A DNA stretch of 64,000 bases, from NCBI RefSeq assembly GCF_900101395.1, contig NZ_FMZO01000003.1, positions 1 through 64,000 on the forward strand, in the 5' to 3' direction. Position 1 is the first letter of the stretch. Each line of letters begins with the position of its first letter. The stretch is from Niabella drilacis (GTDB taxonomy: Bacteria > Bacteroidota > Bacteroidia > Chitinophagales > Chitinophagaceae). Under the pieces are notes generated by a model, which ran no database searches, was not told the DNA's origin, and was given only the letters and a program-made list of their open reading frames with translations. Made by a program: the position numbers and the translations under genes. Positions 2,762 through 57,848 of the stretch are shown one piece after another.

Positions 2762-5700
2762 TTATGTTGTAGCGCCTACTGTCACAAACGCATGCATGCC
2801 TTTCAAAAAATCATAAAGCTCTTTCATGGAAGGAATGGGTTCGGCCACCAGTAAGAACAGCCGCCCGGTTTGTTTTAAGCGGGCTTTATTGGTACCCGTT
2901 TGCACATATTGAATGATCTTCTGGAAAACATCTGCTTCAAAATAAGGAGAATCCGGCCGGTTGATAAAATGACAGCGCAGGGTTTCATTTTTCAGGGTCA
3001 TTTTTTCAAAACCCAGTTCCACGGCCAGTTTCCGGCACTTAACGGTTTCAAAAAGATCATTAACCGGCTCGGGTACCGGACCAAACCGGTCCTGTAACTC
3101 CGTATACATTTCGGCCAGCTCTGCTTCCGATTCGCTGTTGTCCAGGCGCTGGTACAACGAAAGACGTTCTGTAATACTTTCTACGTAATCATCCGGTATG
3201 AGAATTTCCAGGTCGGTATCAATGGTACAATCGCTTACAAAATCGTCCTGTTTGCTGATTTCCTCCTTAAACAGCTCTTTGAACTGCGTGCGTTTTAATT
3301 CGCGGATGGCCTCGTCCAGGATCTTCTGGTAGGTTTCAAAGCCGATCTCGGCCATAAACCCGCTTTGTTCACCACCCAGCAGGTTGCCCGCTCCGCGGAT
3401 ATCAAGGTCGCGCATGGCGATCTGGAAACCGCTGCCCAGTTCACTATGCTGCTCCAGGGTTTGCAGCCGTTTGCGCGAGTCGGCGGGCAGGGTGCTCATA
3501 GGCGGTGCCAGCAAATAGCAGAATGCCTTTTTATTGCTTCTGCCTACACGGCCCCGCAACTGGTGCAGGTCGCTAAGTCCAAAATGATGGGCATTATTGA
3601 TGATAATGGTATTTACATTGGGAATATCGACCCCGCTCTCCACAATATTGGTACAAACCAGCACATCATAGCGGTGATCGATAAAGTCCAGTATCTTTTC
3701 TTCCAGTTTGGAGCCTTCCATCTGGCCATGGGCGTAACTGATGGAAAGATCCGGGCAAAGTCCCTGGATCATTGCGGCCATTTCACTGAGCCCGGCCACC
3801 CGGTTGTGAATAAAGAAGACCTGGCCGCCCCGCTCTGTCTCAAAATAAATGGCGTCGCGGATAGCATCCTCATTGTATACCTGCACCTCTGTTTGTATGG
3901 GTTGGCGGTTGGGGGGAGGGGTATTGATGATGCTCAGGTCCCTGGCACCCATCAGTGAGAACTGCAGGGTCCGGGGGATGGGTGTTGCGGTGAGGGTTAA
4001 ACAATCCACCGTATTACGCAATACTTTTATCTTTTCTTTATGGGCTACCCCGAATTTTTGCTCTTCATCGATCACCAGTATGCCCAGGTCTTTAAATTTT
4101 ACTTCCTTGCCCAGCAACCCGTGGGTGCCCACCAGGATGTCGATCTTGCCTTCCTCCAGTTTTTTGAGGGTTTCCTTTTTTTCTTTGGCCGATTTAAAGC
4201 GGTTCAGGTAATCGACCGTTACCGGGAACTCTTTTAAACGGTCGCTGAACGTTTTATAATGCTGGAAGGCCAGGATGGTGGTGGGTACCAATACGGCTGC
4301 CTGTTTGCCGTCTACGCAGGTTTTAAAGGCCGCGCGGATGGCGATCTCGGTCTTCCCAAACCCCACATCGCCACATACCAGCCGGTCCATGGGGGATTCG
4401 GATTCCATGTCTTTCTTTACATCGGCAGACGCCTTGCTCTGATCCGGCGTGTCCTCGTAAATAAAAGAAGCCTCCAGCTCGGTTTGCAGGTAGTTATCCG
4501 GTGTATGGGCAAACCCTTTCTGGGCCTTGCGCTGTGCATATAGTTTGATGAGGTCAAAAGCGATCTCTTTAACCTTCGCTTTCGTCTTTTCCTTTAACCG
4601 GGTCCAGGCATCACTGCCCAGTTTGTTTACCTTGGGCACACTGCCGTCCTTTCCGGTGTATTTGGAAATTTTGTGCAGCGAATTGATATTTACATACAGG
4701 ACATCTTTGTCTTTGTAAATAATGCGGACCGCTTCCTGTGTTTTACCATTAACGTCCATCTTTTGCAGACCGCTGTACACGCCTACACCATGGTCGATAT
4801 GTGTTACAAAGTCGCCCGGCTGCAGCTCTCTTAAGGTACGCAGGGTGATGGCCTTATTTTTATTATAGGCCTGCTTAACCCGGTATTTGTGATACCGCTG
4901 AAAAATTTCATGGTCGGTATAGCAGAGGATCTTAAGGTCTTCGTCCGTAAAGCCCAGGTGAATGGCGGCCGAAACCGGATTGAACACCAGGTTTGCATCC
5001 TGGTCGTCAAAGATGGATTGCAGGCGTTGTAACTGCTTGGGGTTCTCCGAAAAAATATAAAGGGCAAAGCCCTTTGCTTCGTGCGCCTTCAGGTCTTTGA
5101 TCAGCAGCTCAAACTGCCGGTTAAAGGCGGGCTGCTCCCGGGTGTGGAATTCAAATTCCCTGGAGACGGATGCCGGCATATGTTCCAGGTGCACTACCGG
5201 TCTGTGTTCCAGTGCGGTCTCAAAATCTGCGGGTGTAATAAAGTCTTCGCCGCTGATATCCTTCTTTATTAATTTATCCTCGTCCCTGTTGCCGGATGAT
5301 GCATCCGGTTGCTGCTGTGCCAGGAAATACGCCAGTTCTTCCGAGTGATCCTTTAAGCGCTCCCTGCAGAGTGCTACATCCTGTACCCATATGGCCGTGT
5401 TTTGGGGCAGGAACTCAAAGAGGGATACATGCGCTTCCTTTGCAAACTGTGTATCTACATTGGGAATGATGGATACCTGCAGCAGTTTCCGTTCGCTCAG
5501 CTGTGTTTCCGGGTCGATGATCCGGATAGAGTCGATATCATTTCCAAAGAGTTCGATCCGGTAAGGTTTGTCGTTACCAAAGGAGTAGATATCCAGGATA
5601 CCGCCCCGCAGGGCAAACTGCCCCGGCTCATATACAAAATCACTGCGTTCAAAACCGTACCGGTCCAGCTTCAACAATAGTTCCTCAATATTGAGCGGAT

Positions 5701-25806: not shown

Positions 25807-28551
25807 ATGGAATTATTCGCTTACCATTTTACGATCGTGCAGGCGGCGGTGCCGTTGCCGCTGCAAAGAACCCCGGGGGTAAAATTGCTTTTAGCCTTCG
25901 CGTTGTTATTTCTGGGTTTTACCGGCAATGCCCAAACCCCCGACGCCAATGGTATTGTATATGTTAAAAGCGGCGCTGCCGGCAATGGCGCCGGGTGGGG
26001 AGAAGCCCTGTCTGAACTGGCCACTGCCTTAAAAGCTGCTAAAACGAATACCGGTATAAAAGAGATATGGGTTGCAAAGGGAACGTATAAGCCTTTGTTC
26101 AGCCCGGAAGATGGGCCACTCTTTGGCACAAACCAGGGGCGCGATAATGCGTTCCTGTTGCCGAAAGATGTAAAGGTTTATGGAGGGTTTGATCCGGATA
26201 ACGGCCGGGCAACTTTTGAAACCCGGAGTGCAAAACAGGCCGTAACGATATTGAGTGGCGATATTGACAATAATATGCTATTGGATTATGGCAACGCCTG
26301 CCATATTGTTGTTAGTGCAGGTAATGCAGGAAGCGCGGTGCTGGACGGTTTTACGGTTACCGGGGGCTATGCCTTCGGTAACAACCGGGGCAGTATTAAT
26401 GTAAACAGTATTAATGTTTCTGGTACTGCAGGCGGCGGAATTTCCCTTGCTCATTCATCGCCGGTATTATCGGATCTTATTATTACCGGTAATTCGGCTA
26501 TTTATGGCGGCGGTATCGCCCATGAAACGGCTTCCCCGCTGATTATAAATGTTCTTATAGCAAACAACCAATGCACTGATGCAATGGATTATACCAGCAG
26601 GGCGGGCGGTATGTACAATAGCAGCGCCGCATCGCCCACGCTTGTTAATGTAACGATTATTGGCAACAGCGCTTCTTTAGGTGGCGGCATCTATAACCGG
26701 TATGCCGATATACTTATCCGTAACAGTATTATTTATGGAAATTCGGCTAATGCCGGGCAGGGTATGCAAAATGAAGCCAGTACGCCGGCTGTTAGCTATA
26801 GCCTGATACAGGGTTCACAAGACACCAGTAACGGAAACCTTAGTGCGTCCGGCATCAGTGCCGCTCAACTGTTTAATAATGCAGGTGCCGGCGATTATAC
26901 ACTAAAAGCAGGTAGTGTTGCCGTCAATGCAGGCGATAATGCATTATATCCCGGGTTGGGCAATGGTAGTAAAGATCTGGCGGGCAATGCCCGGGTGTAT
27001 GCACTTGGCAACGGAGGGGTGATCGATATGGGCGCTTATGAGAGCCCGTACACTCCGGTACGGCCCGATGTAAATGGTATTGTGTATGTGAAAACGGAGG
27101 CTACCGGCAATGGTAATAGTTGGGCGAATGCCACCGGGGATTTACAGGCGGCAATAGATGCCACCGGTACGCAACAGGTTTGGGTGGCAAAGGGGGAGTA
27201 CAGGGTAACGGGCAGCAGTTTTATCCTTAAGAACGGGGTTAAGGTGTATGGTGGTTTTGACCCTGCCAGGGGCATTGATGATTTAACCAAAAGCCGTATC
27301 CTGCCCGCCGCTTCGGGAGGCGCCTCGGGGAATGGTTCTATCCTGAATGGGAGGAACGACCGGCCGGTGATTTTTAATGATTTCATATTCACCACCCGGA
27401 TCGACAATACGGCTGCATTAGACGGGTTTACGCTTACCGGGGGATATAGTGCTGCAAATGGGGCCGGGATCTATAATAGCTATGCATCACCTGTTTTACG
27501 AAACCTGGTTATTGAAGGAAACCTGGCTGATAATAACGGGGGAGGCATGTATAATAATAATTCTTCGCCGGTTATCACGAATGTAGTCATAAGAGGCAAT
27601 ACCGCTAAAAATGGCGGGGGTATGCTCAATCTTAATTCTTCCCCGGTCCTTACCAATGTAAGTATCACACGCAATACCGCCGGCTCCGCGGGGGGCGGAT
27701 TGGTACAGGCTGCGGGGCTCGTTGTGCTGAATAACGTAACGGTGGCCGGTAATACCACAAATGCAGTTGTTATTCAAAATGGAGCACTTGCTGCCAATAA
27801 TGCCATCATTTACGGAGGCGTAGACCTGATGTCTGGCGGTACAATGACCCCCGTGCATTCGCTGATACAGGGAAACACGGATTTCACCAATGGGAATATT
27901 AATGCGGCGGATATTGCTGCTACCGATGTTTTTACAGATCCTGCGGGAGGGGATTACACTTTAAAAAACGGCGCCCCGGCTATTGATAAAGGCAGTGACA
28001 GCCTCTATCCCGGTTTAAACGCCGCCACCAGGGACCTGGCTGGTAAACCGCGGTTGACGGGTAGCACGATCGATATGGGGGCTTATGAATATGATGCGGC
28101 GCTGCCCGTGCGGTTTGGCAGCTTTAGCGCTGTTATACGGGATGATCAGCTGCTGGTGAGCTGGAGCACGGAATCAGAAACAGACAATGATCATTTTAAG
28201 ATACAGGTTTCACAGGATGGTATGCAATGGAGCACTGTGCAAACCGTACAAAGCAGGGCGGTAACCGGTAATAGCAGTGCAGTTCTGGAATATAACAGTG
28301 TTATTCCATTGTCTGCGGCGATGACATCAGCGGGGTTATTACTGCTGGCATTCGGAACGGCTGGCACATGCGGCCGGAGAAAAAAGTGCCGGGCACTTTG
28401 TACCGTTATTGGCTGTGCACTGCTTTTTTCCTGTCATAAGGGAGACTTGTTCGGGTCGCCGGAAGCCGGACGGCTGTTTGTGCGTATCGTGCAGGTGGAC
28501 AAGGGGGGCAAGGAGCAGGTTTCAAAAGTGATCCGTACAACAGCAGAATAG
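25807..28551 (+). CDS. Secreted double beta-helix protein with interrupted C-terminal domain
   Basis: A 914-residue exported protein. After a long signal region (to GNAQ, residue 43) come two tandem right-handed parallel beta-helix units (about 48-415 and 422-760). Each starts with a xxNGIVYVKxxATGNG motif and contains GGGIYN / SSPVLTNV coils. Residues 765-832 are a beta-sandwich of the type found beside type IX secretion tails (ALPVRFGSFSA, then SWSTESETDNDHF). At residue 833 this domain is broken by a 56-residue segment: hydrophobic AGLLLLAFG, basic RRKKCR, a second hydrophobic stretch and FSCHK. The final strand pair (LFVRIVQVDKGGKEQVSKV) then resumes and the protein stops without a type IX tail. 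Same operon as 25648 and 28582. Confidence 0.82.
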   Translation: MELFAYHFTIVQAAVPLPLQRTPGVKLLLAFALLFLGFTGNAQTPDANGIVYVKSGAAGNGAGWGEALSELATALKAAKTNTGIKEIWVAKGTYKPLFSPEDGPLFGTNQGRDNAFLLPKDVKVYGGFDPDNGRATFETRSAKQAVTILSGDIDNNMLLDYGNACHIVVSAGNAGSAVLDGFTVTGGYAFGNNRGSINVNSINVSGTAGGGISLAHSSPVLSDLIITGNSAIYGGGIAHETASPLIINVLIANNQCTDAMDYTSRAGGMYNSSAASPTLVNVTIIGNSASLGGGIYNRYADILIRNSIIYGNSANAGQGMQNEASTPAVSYSLIQGSQDTSNGNLSASGISAAQLFNNAGAGDYTLKAGSVAVNAGDNALYPGLGNGSKDLAGNARVYALGNGGVIDMGAYESPYTPVRPDVNGIVYVKTEATGNGNSWANATGDLQAAIDATGTQQVWVAKGEYRVTGSSFILKNGVKVYGGFDPARGIDDLTKSRILPAASGGASGNGSILNGRNDRPVIFNDFIFTTRIDNTAALDGFTLTGGYSAANGAGIYNSYASPVLRNLVIEGNLADNNGGGMYNNNSSPVITNVVIRGNTAKNGGGMLNLNSSPVLTNVSITRNTAGSAGGGLVQAAGLVVLNNVTVAGNTTNAVVIQNGALAANNAIIYGGVDLMSGGTMTPVHSLIQGNTDFTNGNINAADIAATDVFTDPAGGDYTLKNGAPAIDKGSDSLYPGLNAATRDLAGKPRLTGSTIDMGAYEYDAALPVRFGSFSAVIRDDQLLVSWSTESETDNDHFKIQVSQDGMQWSTVQTVQSRAVTGNSSAVLEYNSVIPLSAAMTSAGLLLLAFGTAGTCGRRKKCRALCTVIGCALLFSCHKGDLFGSPEAGRLFVRIVQVDKGGKEQVSKVIRTTAE

Positions 28552-28581
28552 CGCATCGAAGAGAACAGAAAATAATACATT

Positions 28582-30090
28582 ATGATTAAAAATTATTGTT
28601 TTTCAAAACTGGCCATTTGTTTGGCGTTGGTATTTTCAATTAGTAGCAGCAGGGCCCAGGTCAGCACCCTGGCGGGTGGGGCCGGTAATGTGGACTATGT
28701 GGATGCCGTTGGTACAGCGGCAAGAATGGGGCGTATGTCCGGCAACATGGTATGCGACGGAAAAGGCAATCTGTATTTTGCGGATTTCCAGAATTGGCGT
28801 ATCCGGAAGGTCCGGTTGTCTGACGGAACGGTGACTACGGTTACCGGCAGCGGCCCCGCCGGTTATGTAAACGGAACGTTAAGTGAAGCAAAATTTTATA
28901 GTCCGAGGGGGCTGGCTATTGATGCTGCAGGGGAAATCCTGTATGTATCAGACAGGGATTGTATACGCAAAATTGACCTGGTAAATGGGGTTGTTTCGAT
29001 CGTTGCCGGTCAGGGTGGCTCGATCCAGGGGAGTTACCAGGATGGGATTGGTACAGCCGCCCGGTTCAATGGACCCTATGGTCTGGCACTGGACGGTGCT
29101 GGAAACCTGTTCGTAGCAGATCAACAGAATAACCGTGTTCGGAAGATCCGGTTGTCTGATGCAGAAGTAACTACTGTTGCCGGCAGGTACGTGGGCAGCG
29201 GTGATGGTCAGGGAACCAGTGGTCGCTTTTCTGCGCCCGGGTTCCTGGTATATGACGGCTCAGGCTATTTATATGTATCGGATCAGAACAATCACCGTAT
29301 CCGCAGCATACGCCTTTCAGATGCCATGGTGGAAACCGTTGCAGGCAGCAGCGCTGGTTTTGCAGATGGTTCCGGAACGGCGGCGCAGTTTAATTATCCC
29401 AGCGGGTTGGCATTGGATCATTCCGGTAACCTATATGTTGGCGATTATTCAAACCGCCGTGTTCGTATGGTCAAGCTGTCAAGCAAGGATGTTACAACGC
29501 TGACAGGCAGCGCTTACGGCTTTGTTAACGGTAGTCTGCAACAGGCCCTTTTCAGCTATGTTACAAGCCTGGTCTTTGATGAAGACGGAAACCTGTATGT
29601 AGGTGATGAAACAAATTATGCCATTCGTAAGATCGCAACCGGTGTGTTGCCGGTACATTTCGGTACTGTACAGGCCGCAATTAAAAATGAAACCCTTTAT
29701 GTTAGCTGGCAAACACTGGCCGAGACGAATAGCGCCCATTTTCTGATACAGGCTTCTGACAACGGGCAGCAGTTTACAACCATACAGACTATTCAAAGTA
29801 AGGCTACGGCTGGTAACAGCAACAGCGCATTGACGTACAGCAGCGCCATTCCGCTATCGGCTATCAGTATCAGTGCCGGGCTCCTGTTACTGGGGGTAAT
29901 GGCCAATGGCCGCCGCCGGTATGCTGTAACATGGGTTGGGGCCCTGCTTTGTATGCTTTCGTTTTCATGCAGCAGGAAGGGGATCATTACCGGCATGGAT
30001 AAAGAACGGCTACTGGTACGTATCGTTCAGGTAGATAAGGATGGTAAGGAGCAGGTATCAAAAGTGGTCAGCGCAGTGCGCGAACAATAG
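28582..30090 (+). CDS. Secreted NHL-propeller protein with interrupted C-terminal domain
   Basis: A 502-residue exported protein with a signal peptide ending SSSRAQ. About six NHL repeats follow (for example GNLYFADFQNWRIRKV and GNLFVADQQNNRVRKI), which should form a beta-propeller used for protein or ligand binding. Residues 354-422 are the same beta-sandwich as in the preceding gene (LPVHFGTVQAAIKNETLYVSW). It is interrupted at residue 423 by 53 residues with two hydrophobic stretches around NGRRRYA and ending FSCSRKG. The sequence resumes as LLVRIVQVDKDGKEQVSKV. It lies 30 bases after the beta-helix gene and is followed by a perfect terminator. Confidence 0.82.
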   Translation: MIKNYCFSKLAICLALVFSISSSRAQVSTLAGGAGNVDYVDAVGTAARMGRMSGNMVCDGKGNLYFADFQNWRIRKVRLSDGTVTTVTGSGPAGYVNGTLSEAKFYSPRGLAIDAAGEILYVSDRDCIRKIDLVNGVVSIVAGQGGSIQGSYQDGIGTAARFNGPYGLALDGAGNLFVADQQNNRVRKIRLSDAEVTTVAGRYVGSGDGQGTSGRFSAPGFLVYDGSGYLYVSDQNNHRIRSIRLSDAMVETVAGSSAGFADGSGTAAQFNYPSGLALDHSGNLYVGDYSNRRVRMVKLSSKDVTTLTGSAYGFVNGSLQQALFSYVTSLVFDEDGNLYVGDETNYAIRKIATGVLPVHFGTVQAAIKNETLYVSWQTLAETNSAHFLIQASDNGQQFTTIQTIQSKATAGNSNSALTYSSAIPLSAISISAGLLLLGVMANGRRRYAVTWVGALLCMLSFSCSRKGIITGMDKERLLVRIVQVDKDGKEQVSKVVSAVREQ

Positions 30091-38755: not shown

Positions 38756-40519
38756 TTATTCCGGTGTCGCCTGCAATACCTTAGATAGCTGCTTTGTACC
38801 ATCTTTATCTATTTGTACAATGCGTACAAACAGCTTCCCGTTCCCGGCAGGCTCCACGGCCGTGTTTTTATGGCAGGAAAAGGCCAATGCACAGCAAATA
38901 GCTGCTGCTATTGCAAAGGCATGCCTGCGGCGGGTGGATGCCAGGGCGCCCAGTAACAGCATTCCGAAACCCAAACTTAGTGTTGTTAAGGGAATCGTGC
39001 TATTGTATTCCAGAACCGTATTGCTATTGCCTGCTGTGGCTTTGCTCTGGATTGTCTGCACGGTTTTCCAGTGCACGCCATCAGGGGAAAGCTGTAGTAA
39101 GAAATGATCATTATTGGTTTCTGTTTCCGTGGTCCAGCTTACCAATACCCGGCCATTTTTTATAGTGGCGCTGACCGGACCAAATAGTACCGGGAGGGCT
39201 GCGGAGAATTCATAGGCGCCTATATCGATGGCGCTGCCGGCCAGGCGGGGATTGCCGGCGAGGTCCTGATCATTATTAAGATCACCACCGGCGTCGGTGT
39301 ATAGCTGGTTATTGCCTGCATTAATTGCGGGGGCGCCGCTTTTTAAACGGTAATCGCCATTGGCAAAGTTGTTAAAGATATCCGTTCCCGATAAGCCGGT
39401 GGCATCGATATTGCCGTTGGCGGTATTACTGCTGTCTTTGAAAAGACTGTTGTGCGCTACGGCGTTGGTATAGGGGGCATCATCCCATACAATACTGTTG
39501 TTCCAGTAGGTGATGCCACTGGCAAAAAGCCCGCTGATGCCGTTATTGTTTACAAGGGTAACATTGGTAAATATGCTGCCTTCGGAGTTGTCAAAGATGC
39601 CTCCACCAAGATTGGTGACGGTATTGTCGCTGAACAAAACGTTGGTTGCCTTCAGGGCAACTTCTCGGTGATTGTATATACCGCCGCCTCTGTTTGCTGT
39701 GTTTTTCCAAAACGTACTGTATGTAATGACCGGGTAAGCCACTTCATTGCACATGCCGCCCCCTCCAAAATCTGCGGTGTTTTCCGAAAAGGTGCAATAG
39801 CTAATGGTTGGGGAAGCGTTGATGTAGTTGTACATACCTCCACCGCCTCCCAGGGCTGTGTTACGGGTAAAGCTGCTATGCGTAACGATGGGGGACGCAT
39901 TGTTTACATTGAACATCCCGCTGCCAAAATGCCTGCGCACCGCGCCGCCGCCTACGGATAGTGCAACACCGTCGTCCTGATCTGCATTTCCTCCCGTTAC
40001 GGTAAAACCGTCCAGCCGGGCAACGCCCATCCCGCCGCCCGCAATAAGCACATGATAGGCATTATCGGTATTATCGTTCTCAACTCCCCTGTCGCCGCTG
40101 AGCACGGAGCCTTCGCCGCCGGAACCCGGGAGGATGCGTTTATCCGTTAGGCTTATGATCCCGTTGGCAGGGTCAAAGCCCCCATAGAGTCGTACATTGC
40201 TGACCATCAGGAAGGCGTTATCCCTGTCTGCATTATTACCAAAGTTGTCGTCTGCAGGACTATACATTGGCTTGTAAACGCCGGTTGCTACCCAAATCTG
40301 CAACGGGTTTGCGGTGGTCCAGCTGCTTTTGTTGGTGTTGGCCCATTTGAGCGCTTCGGCCAGTTCGGGAACAGCATTTGCCCAGCTGTTCCCTGTATGA
40401 TTACCGCCGGTTACCTGTTTATTAACATAAAGGATATTACCGGTTCCGGGGGTAAATTGCGCCCGGAGTGCCCCTGCCCAGCATAGGCAAAAGAGCAGCA
40501 AAAATTGACTTTTTTTCAT
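38756..40519 (-). CDS. Secreted beta-helix protein with interrupted C-terminal domain
   Basis: A 587-residue exported protein starting at 40519 (MKKSQFLLLFCLCWAGALRA). It has a single right-handed beta-helix domain (GNILYVNKQVTGGN, then GGGGMYN / SPTISYCTF coils). The beta-sandwich LPVLFGPVSATIKNGRVLVSW follows. At residue 509 it is interrupted by 53 residues: FGMLLLGAL, STRRRHA, a second hydrophobic stretch and FSCHK. The end resumes as LFVRIVQIDKDGTKQLSKV. This is the third protein in the window with this arrangement, and it sits far from the other two and on the opposite strand. An upstream in-frame ATG (40651) would add 44 residues without signal character. Confidence 0.8.
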   Translation of the reverse strand: MKKSQFLLLFCLCWAGALRAQFTPGTGNILYVNKQVTGGNHTGNSWANAVPELAEALKWANTNKSSWTTANPLQIWVATGVYKPMYSPADDNFGNNADRDNAFLMVSNVRLYGGFDPANGIISLTDKRILPGSGGEGSVLSGDRGVENDNTDNAYHVLIAGGGMGVARLDGFTVTGGNADQDDGVALSVGGGAVRRHFGSGMFNVNNASPIVTHSSFTRNTALGGGGGMYNYINASPTISYCTFSENTADFGGGGMCNEVAYPVITYSTFWKNTANRGGGIYNHREVALKATNVLFSDNTVTNLGGGIFDNSEGSIFTNVTLVNNNGISGLFASGITYWNNSIVWDDAPYTNAVAHNSLFKDSSNTANGNIDATGLSGTDIFNNFANGDYRLKSGAPAINAGNNQLYTDAGGDLNNDQDLAGNPRLAGSAIDIGAYEFSAALPVLFGPVSATIKNGRVLVSWTTETETNNDHFLLQLSPDGVHWKTVQTIQSKATAGNSNTVLEYNSTIPLTTLSLGFGMLLLGALASTRRRHAFAIAAAICCALAFSCHKNTAVEPAGNGKLFVRIVQIDKDGTKQLSKVLQATPE

Positions 40520-41125
40520 TTTGTGGTTAATTGGTACTGATGTATTTAGTTGATTAGGGATGTGATGGCTTGGCGGGGTATTGCAGGCAATGCGTTTGTC
40601 TTCATCGTTATTTTTAATTGCGTAGCTGTTTACTGGTCTAAGCCGGGCCAATGAAACTCAGATTACAGGAAAAGCAACGAGGTTTGTGAGCGGTCTAAAT
40701 TATAGTTTACAATAGATGGTCCAAAGCTAAAGAAAAAAATTAATATTCAGGCTGATGATGCGTTTCACCAGAGCGAAGGCATAGATCTGACTCCCGGATA
40801 ATACAGAGGGATGGTTTTATGCATTGGGGCTTCAATACTTTTTTTGGGGATCTAAGGTATGAGCAGGGCGTAAACGTTCCTGTATCTTGCGTTATCCGTT
40901 AAGCGCTTCCGGGGCGGAAAGTATACTCCAGGCCTGGATGGGATAAGGTTAGGATTGTATGCCTGGAAAGCTAAGAGATCATACCGGATAACGCTTTTAG
41001 TTACAGCATTGTTTCGCGGAATAATGGTATGTGTAAAAGCGATCTGCCAGAAGCCCCGGTCTTACGGTAAAGCTTACCCGGATCTGCTTGAGGCGGTAAT
41101 AATAAAGGAGTTGCAGCGCCATACA
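40520..41125. other. Intergenic, about 600 bases, no gene supported
   Basis: Frames are short and lack start context. A 10-base inverted repeat pairs GCGTTATCCG near 40886 with CGGATAACGC near 40984. It probably contains the promoter of the beta-helix gene at 40519, but no clear TAnnTTTG box is seen on the minus strand close to the start. Confidence 0.4.
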
Positions 41126-56198: not shown

Positions 56199-57848
56199 AT
56201 GAAACGATTCATATATAAGGTTACCGGTTTATTAGCACTGGTACTGCTATTGACCCAGTGTAACAAGATCAATGATTATTTAAAGCGGGAACCGGTAGGC
56301 GGACTTTCGGAGCTGGATGTGTTTACCCGGTATGGCGAAACCGAAAAGTTTATTGCCGGCATTTATGCAAAGATGGCTGAACGTTCTGAATGGTGGCCGG
56401 CTGCAGAATCAACCAATAAGACCTTCTCTTATGCGGCGGCCAGTGATGAAGCCATTTGCTCTGTGCAATACCCCAACGGGCCGCAAATCTTTACCCAGGG
56501 TACCTTCAACGCCAGCAATAATCCGCTGGACCGCTGGAACGACTTCTATGCAGGTGTGCGCAAAGCCAACCTGTTCCTGGAAAAGATCGGGATGCTGGCC
56601 CCCCAGAACAGTACCCAGGCTTCCGGCAAACAGCGCATGATCGGCGAAGCGCATTTCCTGAGGGCATTCTTCTATATGGAGCTGTTTAAGCGGTACGGCG
56701 GCGTGCCCCTTGTGGACCGCGTGCTGAATATTTCAGACAGCCTGAACCTCCGGCGGAATTCTGCAGAAGAGACCGTAAATTTTATTGCCGCGGATTGCGA
56801 TGCAGCCGCACAGCTGCTGCCGGTGGAACATAGCGCAACAGATTGGGGACGGGCTACAAAAGGAGCCGCGCTAATGCTGAAGGCCAAGGCATTGCTGTTT
56901 GGAGCCAGTTTACTGCATAACCCCTCGCAGGATAAAGCCAAATGGCTGAGCGCTGCAGACGCAGCCCGTGCTGTAGCGGATTTGAACTATTACCAGGTAG
57001 ATGCGGATTATGCCGGACTGATGCATAAGCGCACGGCAAGGAATATCATCTTCCAGTCGAATATCAATCAAACGGACTGGGTGCATTTTAATTTTATTCC
57101 AAGCCTTGGCGGGCAGGCAAGGGTACAACCTTTGCAGAACCTGGTGGATGCCTATGATATGAAATCAAGCGGGCTGCCCATTACGGAAGATCCCTCTTAT
57201 GATGCGGTTAATAATCCCTACGCGAACCGCGATCCTCGTTTTTATCTATCCATTATTCATGATGGCAGCGCATTTAAAGGAAGTCCCGTACTGACCTATC
57301 TAAATGCGCCGGGTGGAAATGATGAGCAGCGCTGGGGCGGTGAGCGTCGCACACAAACAGGGTTTTACCTGCGCAAGACCGTTGATGAAACGGGTAGCAT
57401 TACACCTAATGCGATCGTTGGCGATCATTTCTGGATCTTTATGCGCTTTGAAGAAACATTACTGTGCTACGCAGAAGCCATGAATGAGTACCTGGATGCA
57501 CCTGATCAAAGCGTATATGATGCAGTAAACCAGGTACGCACCCGTGTGGGGATGCCCGCACTGCCCGCCGGTCTGTCAAAAGAAAAAATGCGCCAGCGCA
57601 TACGCAATGAGCGTCGCGTGGAGCTGGCTTTTGAAGGCCAGCGTTTTTGGGATATCCGCCGCTGGCGCATTGGTACCGAAGTGATGCTGAAAGCCCGGGG
57701 CGTGATCATTGATGGTTCCGGCCCAGCCAAGAAACACTGGGATAACGAGATTGAAACGCGGATCTATAAACCGGCTTTTGATCTTTTCCCGATCCCCCAG
57801 AGTGAGTTGAATAAGCAGCCGGCCCTTACGCAAAACGAAGGGTACTAG
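56199..57848 (+). CDS. SusD/RagB-family glycan-binding lipoprotein
   Basis: A 549-residue lipoprotein with signal and lipobox LLLTQC (Cys23 by count). It has SusD helices (IGEAHFLRAFFYMELFKRYG), the C-terminal family signature RNERRVELAFEGQRFWDIRR and final LTQNEGY. It forms the lid of the SusC-type receptor just upstream. The ligand is likely a rhamnose-containing glycan, inferred from the GH78 gene in the same locus. Confidence 0.95.
   Translation: MKRFIYKVTGLLALVLLLTQCNKINDYLKREPVGGLSELDVFTRYGETEKFIAGIYAKMAERSEWWPAAESTNKTFSYAAASDEAICSVQYPNGPQIFTQGTFNASNNPLDRWNDFYAGVRKANLFLEKIGMLAPQNSTQASGKQRMIGEAHFLRAFFYMELFKRYGGVPLVDRVLNISDSLNLRRNSAEETVNFIAADCDAAAQLLPVEHSATDWGRATKGAALMLKAKALLFGASLLHNPSQDKAKWLSAADAARAVADLNYYQVDADYAGLMHKRTARNIIFQSNINQTDWVHFNFIPSLGGQARVQPLQNLVDAYDMKSSGLPITEDPSYDAVNNPYANRDPRFYLSIIHDGSAFKGSPVLTYLNAPGGNDEQRWGGERRTQTGFYLRKTVDETGSITPNAIVGDHFWIFMRFEETLLCYAEAMNEYLDAPDQSVYDAVNQVRTRVGMPALPAGLSKEKMRQRIRNERRVELAFEGQRFWDIRRWRIGTEVMLKARGVIIDGSGPAKKHWDNEIETRIYKPAFDLFPIPQSELNKQPALTQNEGY

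Follow-up and report, generated by a model that had tools for sequence, protein, structure and literature searches.

Lipoprotein signals are generally taken to be N-terminal, and in the type V fimbrillins (FimA/Mfa) of Bacteroidota, which are lipoproteins on export and assemble by donor-strand complementation, the N-terminal lipid is later removed by a protease. A C-terminal arrangement is described by the NCBIfam model NF058595.1 ('invert_tail', the lipo-invert putative C-terminal anchoring domain), whose order of strands, membrane segment, Arg patch, membrane segment with a lipobox Cys and about 40 positions of last strands, as deduced from profile matches and a probe, is also that of the element reported here; we take tails of the lipo-invert type to belong to Acidobacteriota. 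Lipidation and surface sorting have been predicted for MYXO-CTERM proteins from a C-terminal membrane segment with an Arg-rich end (PMC11980579), and Capnocytophaga (Bacteroidota) has a surface-export signal, the lipoprotein export signal (LES), of the form C-X-K-(D/E)2 (PMC5080379). Here we analysed positions 1-64,000 (forward strand) of contig NZ_FMZO01000003.1 of Niabella drilacis (genome G000, 6.1 Mb), hereafter the window, in which two adjacent genes encode proteins ending in the same fibronectin type III (FN3)-like sandwich, cut in each by an insert with two membrane segments. From sequence and a structural model we read this insert, with a probability of roughly 0.7, as an internal lipoprotein signal lying in the loop that leads into strands F and G, the final two main strands of the sandwich, and so placed that the lipidated tail would anchor the chain.

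A single comparison of the last 150 and 148 residues of the two proteins revealed 48% identity (72/149, E 4e-47), which is far beyond chance. The original prediction, made from the DNA alone, had proposed such a shared module at the ends of two proteins with unrelated main domains, and both parts were borne out, the main domains being of the choice-of-anchor Q and NHL types. Its positions were exact for the inserts of 56 residues in the first protein (P0001, 833-888) and 53 residues in the second (P0002, 423-475) as well as for the motifs, namely LEYNSVIPL/LTYSSAIPL (827-835/417-425), GLLLL (843-847/433-437), FSC (874-876/461-463) and LFVRI/LLVRI (from 890/477). The prediction was also right that the sandwich is interrupted by the insert, but not that one closing strand follows, since the AlphaFold2 model of the second protein places at least two strands after it (module residues 122-131, 136-138 and 142-146).

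To describe the insert we used an 87-row alignment, comprising 29 modules from the window genome, 56 from other Niabella-group genomes and 2 from Ferruginibacter metagenome-assembled genomes (MAGs); L029 (a near copy of L028), L132 (the same module as L131) and L137 (odd spacing, also with the Cys) were left out, as were the frame-broken or partial L095, L101, L110, L116, L127, L139, L140 and L142. Two membrane segments flank a Lys/Arg patch, the second of them closing with a lipobox-like Cys, and this layout agrees with a positive-inside topology, as the loop between the hydrophobic segments carries 2-6 Lys/Arg and is free of Asp and Glu in 85/87 modules. Only three positions are invariant: Tyr65 before the insert, Cys109, which is the lipobox-like Cys and is present in all 87 modules, and Arg126 in the closing strand. 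The residue preceding the Cys is small (S49 G19 A17 T2; S/G/A in 85/87), consistent with the earlier suggestion that FSC is a lipobox, and the residue at +2 is Lys in 80 modules, Arg in 5, and His and Asp in one each, so that K or R occurs in 85/87. The Cys lies 38-44 residues from the C-terminus, and the gap from Tyr to Arg measures 59-74 residues in the 87 interrupted modules versus 13-18 in 45 uninterrupted modules from other genera. Among the 29 module-bearing open reading frames (ORFs) examined in the window genome, 27 carry a separate N-terminal hydrophobic export signal, the other two being one cut by a contig end and one without a clear start. An internal translation start was considered and rejected, as some copies have a Met before the Lys/Arg patch but the 27 Met in 696 positions are close to the background rate. 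Frameshifts in A-rich runs near base 3001 were seen in three Niabella loci (L095, L116 and L139), all at the Lys/Arg patch, and are probably assembly errors or decay. The N-terminus (QCNK) of a SusD-like lipoprotein elsewhere in the window (56199-57848, +) has the same C-X-K pattern as is found after the internal Cys.

AlphaFold2 modelling of the module of the second window protein (predicted TM-score, pTM, 0.69) gave block means of the predicted local distance difference test (pLDDT) of 88-98 for the core, 48-64 for the insert and 92-96 for the tail strands, and in this model the final strands of the tail complete the sandwich. Foldseek searches with the module placed FN3-type folds among the top matches, for example 3mpc_A with a TM-score of 0.70 normalised to target length, none of them at E≤1e-3. 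From the order of the strands, by which we assigned their letters, we take the cut to lie between strands E and F, with the tail carrying F and G.

Sequence and model together present a Cys that follows a hydrophobic segment and a small residue at -1, a positively charged loop, a first membrane segment and a tail that completes the sandwich; lipidation, cleavage and the location of the module we infer from these. According to the proposed mechanism, an N-terminal Sec signal would export the main domain until segment 1 halts transfer, which would place the Lys/Arg loop on the cytoplasmic side and turn the chain so that the second signal can work. Segment 2 would then serve as the lipoprotein signal peptide, Lgt would lipidate the Cys and LspA would cut before it, converting the 38-44-residue tail into a lipopeptide; its F-G hairpin would remain seated in the sandwich or plug into it. 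The large chain would thereby be held to a membrane via a non-covalent strand plug, and a location in the outer membrane would need enzymatic removal of segment 1.

The same architecture is encoded by adjacent gene pairs in two further genera. In G008 an ORF ends after the strand preceding the cut and is followed by a lipoprotein-like ORF of 64 residues with the missing strands; in G108, of the same genus, the second ORF (57 residues) begins one codon past the stop of the first, and in G076, of another genus, a second ORF of 51 residues lies about 100 bases after the first. The second ORFs of all three lack the first hydrophobic segment and keep the lipoprotein signal. G004 carries a further variant, seen once, in two overlapping genes (L065, 38-1839): a protein with SASA esterase and Laminin_G domains ends in the first sandwich strand only, and the second gene, lipoprotein-like, opens with strands F-G and continues with the others, so that the split is circularly permuted. 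These forms were matched by A3, an insert-plus-tail alignment built without any split form, at 8.6e-10 (G008), 4.7e-7 (G004) and, for one match in G108, 2.8e-8, and the split ORF of G076 was matched at 1.9e-7 by A5, an alignment that includes the G008 split; A3 itself gave two matches in G076 (best 3.6e-8), of which one (L155) probably represents a module without interruption that runs into a T9SS-like tail (T9SS, type IX secretion system). Split forms are rare, as they came from searches of 395 and 117 genomes. When the G108 pair was joined by read-through, the strands of the second ORF were modelled at pLDDT 92-93 and the whole chain aligned with FN3 domains, which came next in the Foldseek results after the only three matches at E≤1e-3, all enzymes. 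A fused gene would, after cleavage by LspA, yield the same two chains as the split genes, which likely represent the end state: a truncated sandwich with a lipidated hairpin and no need for segment 1.

Within the window genome, a profile built from the two window modules gave 33 matches at E≤0.01, and the Cys is present in 30/30 of the best 30. Eleven genomes, the window genome included, were taken as Niabella, of which G022, G119 and G189 share the genus of the window genome; A3 at E≤1e-6 matched at least 34, 12, 18, 15, 18, 28, 24, 20, 49, 35 and 25 times in them, at least 278 in total, counts for which the best 150 candidates were first examined in several genomes and which may include decayed copies. 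All but a few of the 52 loci in the genome collection are from Niabella, and DNA identity between the loci of the window genome and eight Niabella loci was 67-80% in the aligned pieces listed. Outside Niabella, fused copies were found singly in three MAG genomes (two Ferruginibacter, one Chitinophagaceae). A search of 195 family genomes, with the best 19 candidates scored per genome, returned full-module matches only in the genus of the window among the matches listed, those in other genera covering the pre-insert part only; across 395 phylum genomes, with the best 13 scored, full-length insert matches among those listed fell in G000 and G022 only. The full insert thus appears nearly confined to one genus, among the matches listed. 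The original prediction had set its proposal against a single unconserved, lineage-specific loop; the restriction to nearly one genus fits that description, but the lack of conservation does not: the insert persists in dozens of proteins in each genome, and its Cys never varies. The closing strands (VRIVQVDKDG), whose homology the prediction feared might vanish in profile alignment, remained homologous under wide sampling, and searches of plasmid and viral sequences gave no matches.

The module is attached to diverse hosts, including choice-of-anchor Q and beta-helix proteins, NHL proteins, RCC1 repeats, DUF285, an M43-type peptidase with GEVED and a glycine-rich domain; 8 of 20 further module proteins of the window genome that were scanned had no Pfam match at 1e-3. 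A tree of the sandwich halves gave almost one cluster and was poorly resolved, so that a single origin is suggested, not shown, given 68 columns for 135 rows. Decayed or orphan tails, which keep the closing strands but lack a lipobox or an intact sandwich, were noted at L184, L185 and L188 (G000 C33, C40 and C31), and five module-bearing genes, three with a nearly identical module, lie within 9.5 kb at L205 (G000:C39:2400-11900).

Searches for T9SS covered SprA, GldKLMN and the sorting tails. Neither window protein matched the T9SS tail model TIGR04183, in line with the original prediction for these two proteins, and the whole window genome contains one match. Such tails numbered 1, 1, 0 and 1 in four genomes of the window's genus versus 23 to at least 150 in 18/18 family relatives, and SprA, the T9SS translocon, was found in 0/11 Niabella genomes versus 7/7 genomes of other genera. 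Elsewhere the same sandwich module precedes T9SS-like tails: among 46 modules examined, 45 were uninterrupted and one was a split form, and most of the uninterrupted ones continue into the tail. By these gene counts, the Niabella lineage seems to have lost both the translocon and the sorting tails that its relatives have, with genes for the ring and motor persisting. In relatives a T9SS tail occupies the place of the Niabella tail, and the latter has thus most likely taken over from T9SS the sorting of the module proteins. The idea of a different C-terminal anchoring device on proteins that end with no T9SS tail, put forward in the original prediction, is supported.

Several observations weigh against an internal lipoprotein signal or against its link with the loss of T9SS. 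The residue at -3 of the Cys is not the classical Leu (F18 A15 I9 S8 L8 of 87), and this position also varies in 13 N-terminal lipoprotein candidates from the same loci, not all of them convincing (F3 L2 A2 I2). Lys at +2, found in 80/87 modules, occurs in just 3/13 of these same not uniformly convincing candidates. The complete C-X-K-(D/E)2 pattern of LES is met by 1/87 modules, against 80/87 for C-X-K alone, and strict LES-type surface export is thus not supported. To our knowledge no enzyme removes a segment such as segment 1, which would otherwise hold the main chain in the inner membrane; the fate of this segment is the point at which the reading is weakest. The split-pair model relied on an alignment made up mostly of fused copies and on the read-through that joined the two ORFs. 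Weak matches of NF058595 to the modules carry little weight alone, because at E≤0.1 the model has matches in 14/14 control genomes (1/14 at E≤1e-4). As for T9SS, all 3/3 non-Niabella MAG genomes with a single fused copy keep SprA, and module fusion therefore does not require its loss; the window genome has a gldKLMN operon (L192 6055-10674, G000:C29) whose four proteins pass the NCBI cut-offs, and GldM was detected in 10/11 Niabella genomes, in one of them as two fragments that score under the cut-off; parts of T9SS thus persist.

These points were set against four other explanations. If the two hydrophobic segments formed an uncut membrane hairpin that anchors the sandwich in the inner membrane, with a Cys neither lipidated nor a cleavage site, the hairpin alone would satisfy the topology, core and tail would both lie outside the cytoplasm and fold together as in the AlphaFold2 model, and the missing enzyme for segment 1 would cease to be a difficulty; such a hairpin nevertheless needs no invariant Cys (87/87) with S/G/A before it (85/87) and Lys at +2 (80/87), and the split forms retain the lipoprotein signal in the absence of segment 1, which makes this explanation unlikely in our view. 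CTERM-type sorting, in which segment 1 and the Arg patch would be cut by an exosortase, a rhombosortase or a myxosortase-like protease and the rest would be secondary, draws on the resemblance of segment 1 followed by K/R to CTERM tails and on weak LPXTG_anchor matches in 18/87 members (E up to 1, best 0.02), and an additional cleavage close to segment 1 would also explain how the main chain is released if the insert is a lipoprotein signal. We consider it improbable: the signal is not at the protein end, and exosortase (PF09721) was found in 0/11 Niabella genomes, rhomboid and CPBP proteases not having been searched for, so that the sortase- or exosortase-like reading of the original prediction was rejected. 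Nor does a short invariant motif precede segment 1 in the 87 modules, where MYXO-CTERM has its invariant Cys (PMC11980579).

A remodelled T9SS, that is, a GldKLMN machine without SprA that recognises the module tail as a new export signal, would account for the whole gldKLMN of the window genome, for GldM in 10/11 Niabella genomes and for a tail that occupies the former position of the T9SS tail, yet the tail resembles a lipoprotein signal and not a T9SS domain, and G189 (99% complete) has the inserts but no GldM match; its chances seem slim. The near restriction to one genus among the matches listed, the almost single cluster of sandwich halves in a poorly resolved tree and the existence of decayed copies are what a functionless hydrophobic insertion, specific to the lineage and spread by gene duplication, might leave behind. 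With the Cys, the -1 residue and the charge kept over 87 diverse copies, at least 12-49 matches kept in each of 11/11 genomes and split two-gene forms elsewhere, we attach almost no credence to it.

An internal lipoprotein signal hence remains the explanation that we prefer, and it invites a wider proposal whose odds we regard as evenly balanced: the whole genus would have dispensed with the T9SS translocon and given a new tail, a self-splitting lipid anchor, to dozens of exported proteins that are otherwise unrelated. An Ig-like domain with no relation to the Niabella sandwich (NF058595) would have arrived at the same cut, as would other Chitinophagaceae in the form of two genes, making strand-plug lipid anchoring general and convergent. 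If the insert is an internal lipoprotein signal, tools that read N-termini only would miss a class of lipid-anchored proteins numbering about 25 per Niabella genome (at least 278 matches in 11), and altering a single loop would have let a lineage anchor its exported proteins even after loss of the T9SS translocon. The protein would be held by a lipid on two strands that are cut off separately and bound non-covalently, an arrangement of which nature provides one-gene and two-gene versions for comparison. The features of the window, among them a third protein with the interrupted module, are collected in Table 1.

Table 1. Coordinates in the window of the proteins with an interrupted end module and of the module parts.
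Feature	Positions	Strand	Content or evidence
First host protein (P0001)	25807..28551	+	914-residue ORF; choice-of-anchor Q, beta-helix by look
Second host protein (P0002)	28582..30090	+	502-residue ORF; NHL repeats
Sandwich core, first protein (strands preceding the cut)	28099..28296	+	Sequence; equivalent part of second protein at AlphaFold2 pLDDT 88-98
Insert, first protein (residues 833-888)	28303..28470	+	Membrane segment 1, Arg/Lys patch, membrane segment 2, Cys, linker
Lipobox-like Cys 876 (FSC), first protein	28432..28434	+	Invariant in 87/87 aligned modules
Cys-to-end tail, first protein (39 residues)	28432..28548	+	Holds final strands LFVRIVQVDKGG..VSKVI
Sandwich core, second protein	29644..29832	+	Sequence and AlphaFold2 model
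Insert, second protein (residues 423-475)	29848..30006	+	AlphaFold2 pLDDT block means 48-64 (module residues 71-120)
Lipobox-like Cys 463 (FSC), second protein	29968..29970	+	Sequence
Cys-to-end tail, second protein (40 residues)	29968..30087	+	AlphaFold2 strands 122-131, 136-138, 142-146; pLDDT block means 92-96
Third protein with interrupted module	38756..40651	-	Choice-of-anchor Q; Cys codon 38873-38875; not named in the original prediction

Comparison with NF058595 revealed a common layout and different strands. Positions 6-73 of the model weakly matched residues 46-110 of the window module, its positions 87-113 gave a weak match to Ig-like strands, and 47 of the 87 modules were matched at E up to 1 (best 8.2e-5). 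None of the 87 came near the curated 37-bit cut-off, the best score in the window genome being 21.4 bits, and the cut-off was passed in 0/60 family genomes and 0/247 phylum genomes; membership of the Niabella module was accordingly rejected by score, and NF058595 was kept as its closest kind. Of the two matches at E≤1e-4 in the 60 family genomes, one resembles an ordinary N-terminal lipoprotein and the other an Ig-like domain. A typed probe modelled on Acidobacteriota-type tails, with the interrupted layout and Ig-like final strands, scored 110.7 bits over positions 1-113, the full length of the model, and the model therefore describes the same layout with Ig-like final strands. By way of this probe, the last strands of NF058595 look Ig-like (GTYTVTV..TTVTLTV), whereas those of the Niabella module read FxRIxQVDKDG..YSKVI; the window tail RLLVRIVQVDKDG..QVSKVV is without the Ig-like final strands GTYTVTV..VTLTV.

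The other systems differ in where the signal lies and in what it anchors. With the ordinary lipoprotein signal of Lgt and LspA the Niabella insert shares the positive patch, hydrophobic stretch, small residue, Cys and polar residues, but the ordinary signal is N-terminal and this one internal, about 40 residues from the C-terminus and after a stop-transfer-like segment. Fimbrillins polymerise and bear an N-terminal lipid, whereas the Niabella lipid would sit on the donated hairpin, with no polymer implied. In other genera the same FN3-like module precedes the T9SS type A C-terminal domain (TIGR04183); relative to those proteins, the loop is replaced in Niabella by the insert, the T9SS tail is missing and SprA was not found in the 11 genomes. 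In MYXO-CTERM the Cys lies ahead of the membrane segment and the protein finishes with the Arg-rich region, whereas the Niabella Cys follows the second segment; the three invariant positions of the 87 modules include no Cys before a membrane segment. Titles and abstract openings in a subset of PubMed Central yielded nothing on lipo-invert, on internal lipoprotein signals or on T9SS loss in Niabella. The Niabella module is thus a variant of a kind that exists, as far as our searches show, only as a database model, and new here are its FN3 context, its two-gene forms and its association with the loss of SprA and of the T9SS tails.

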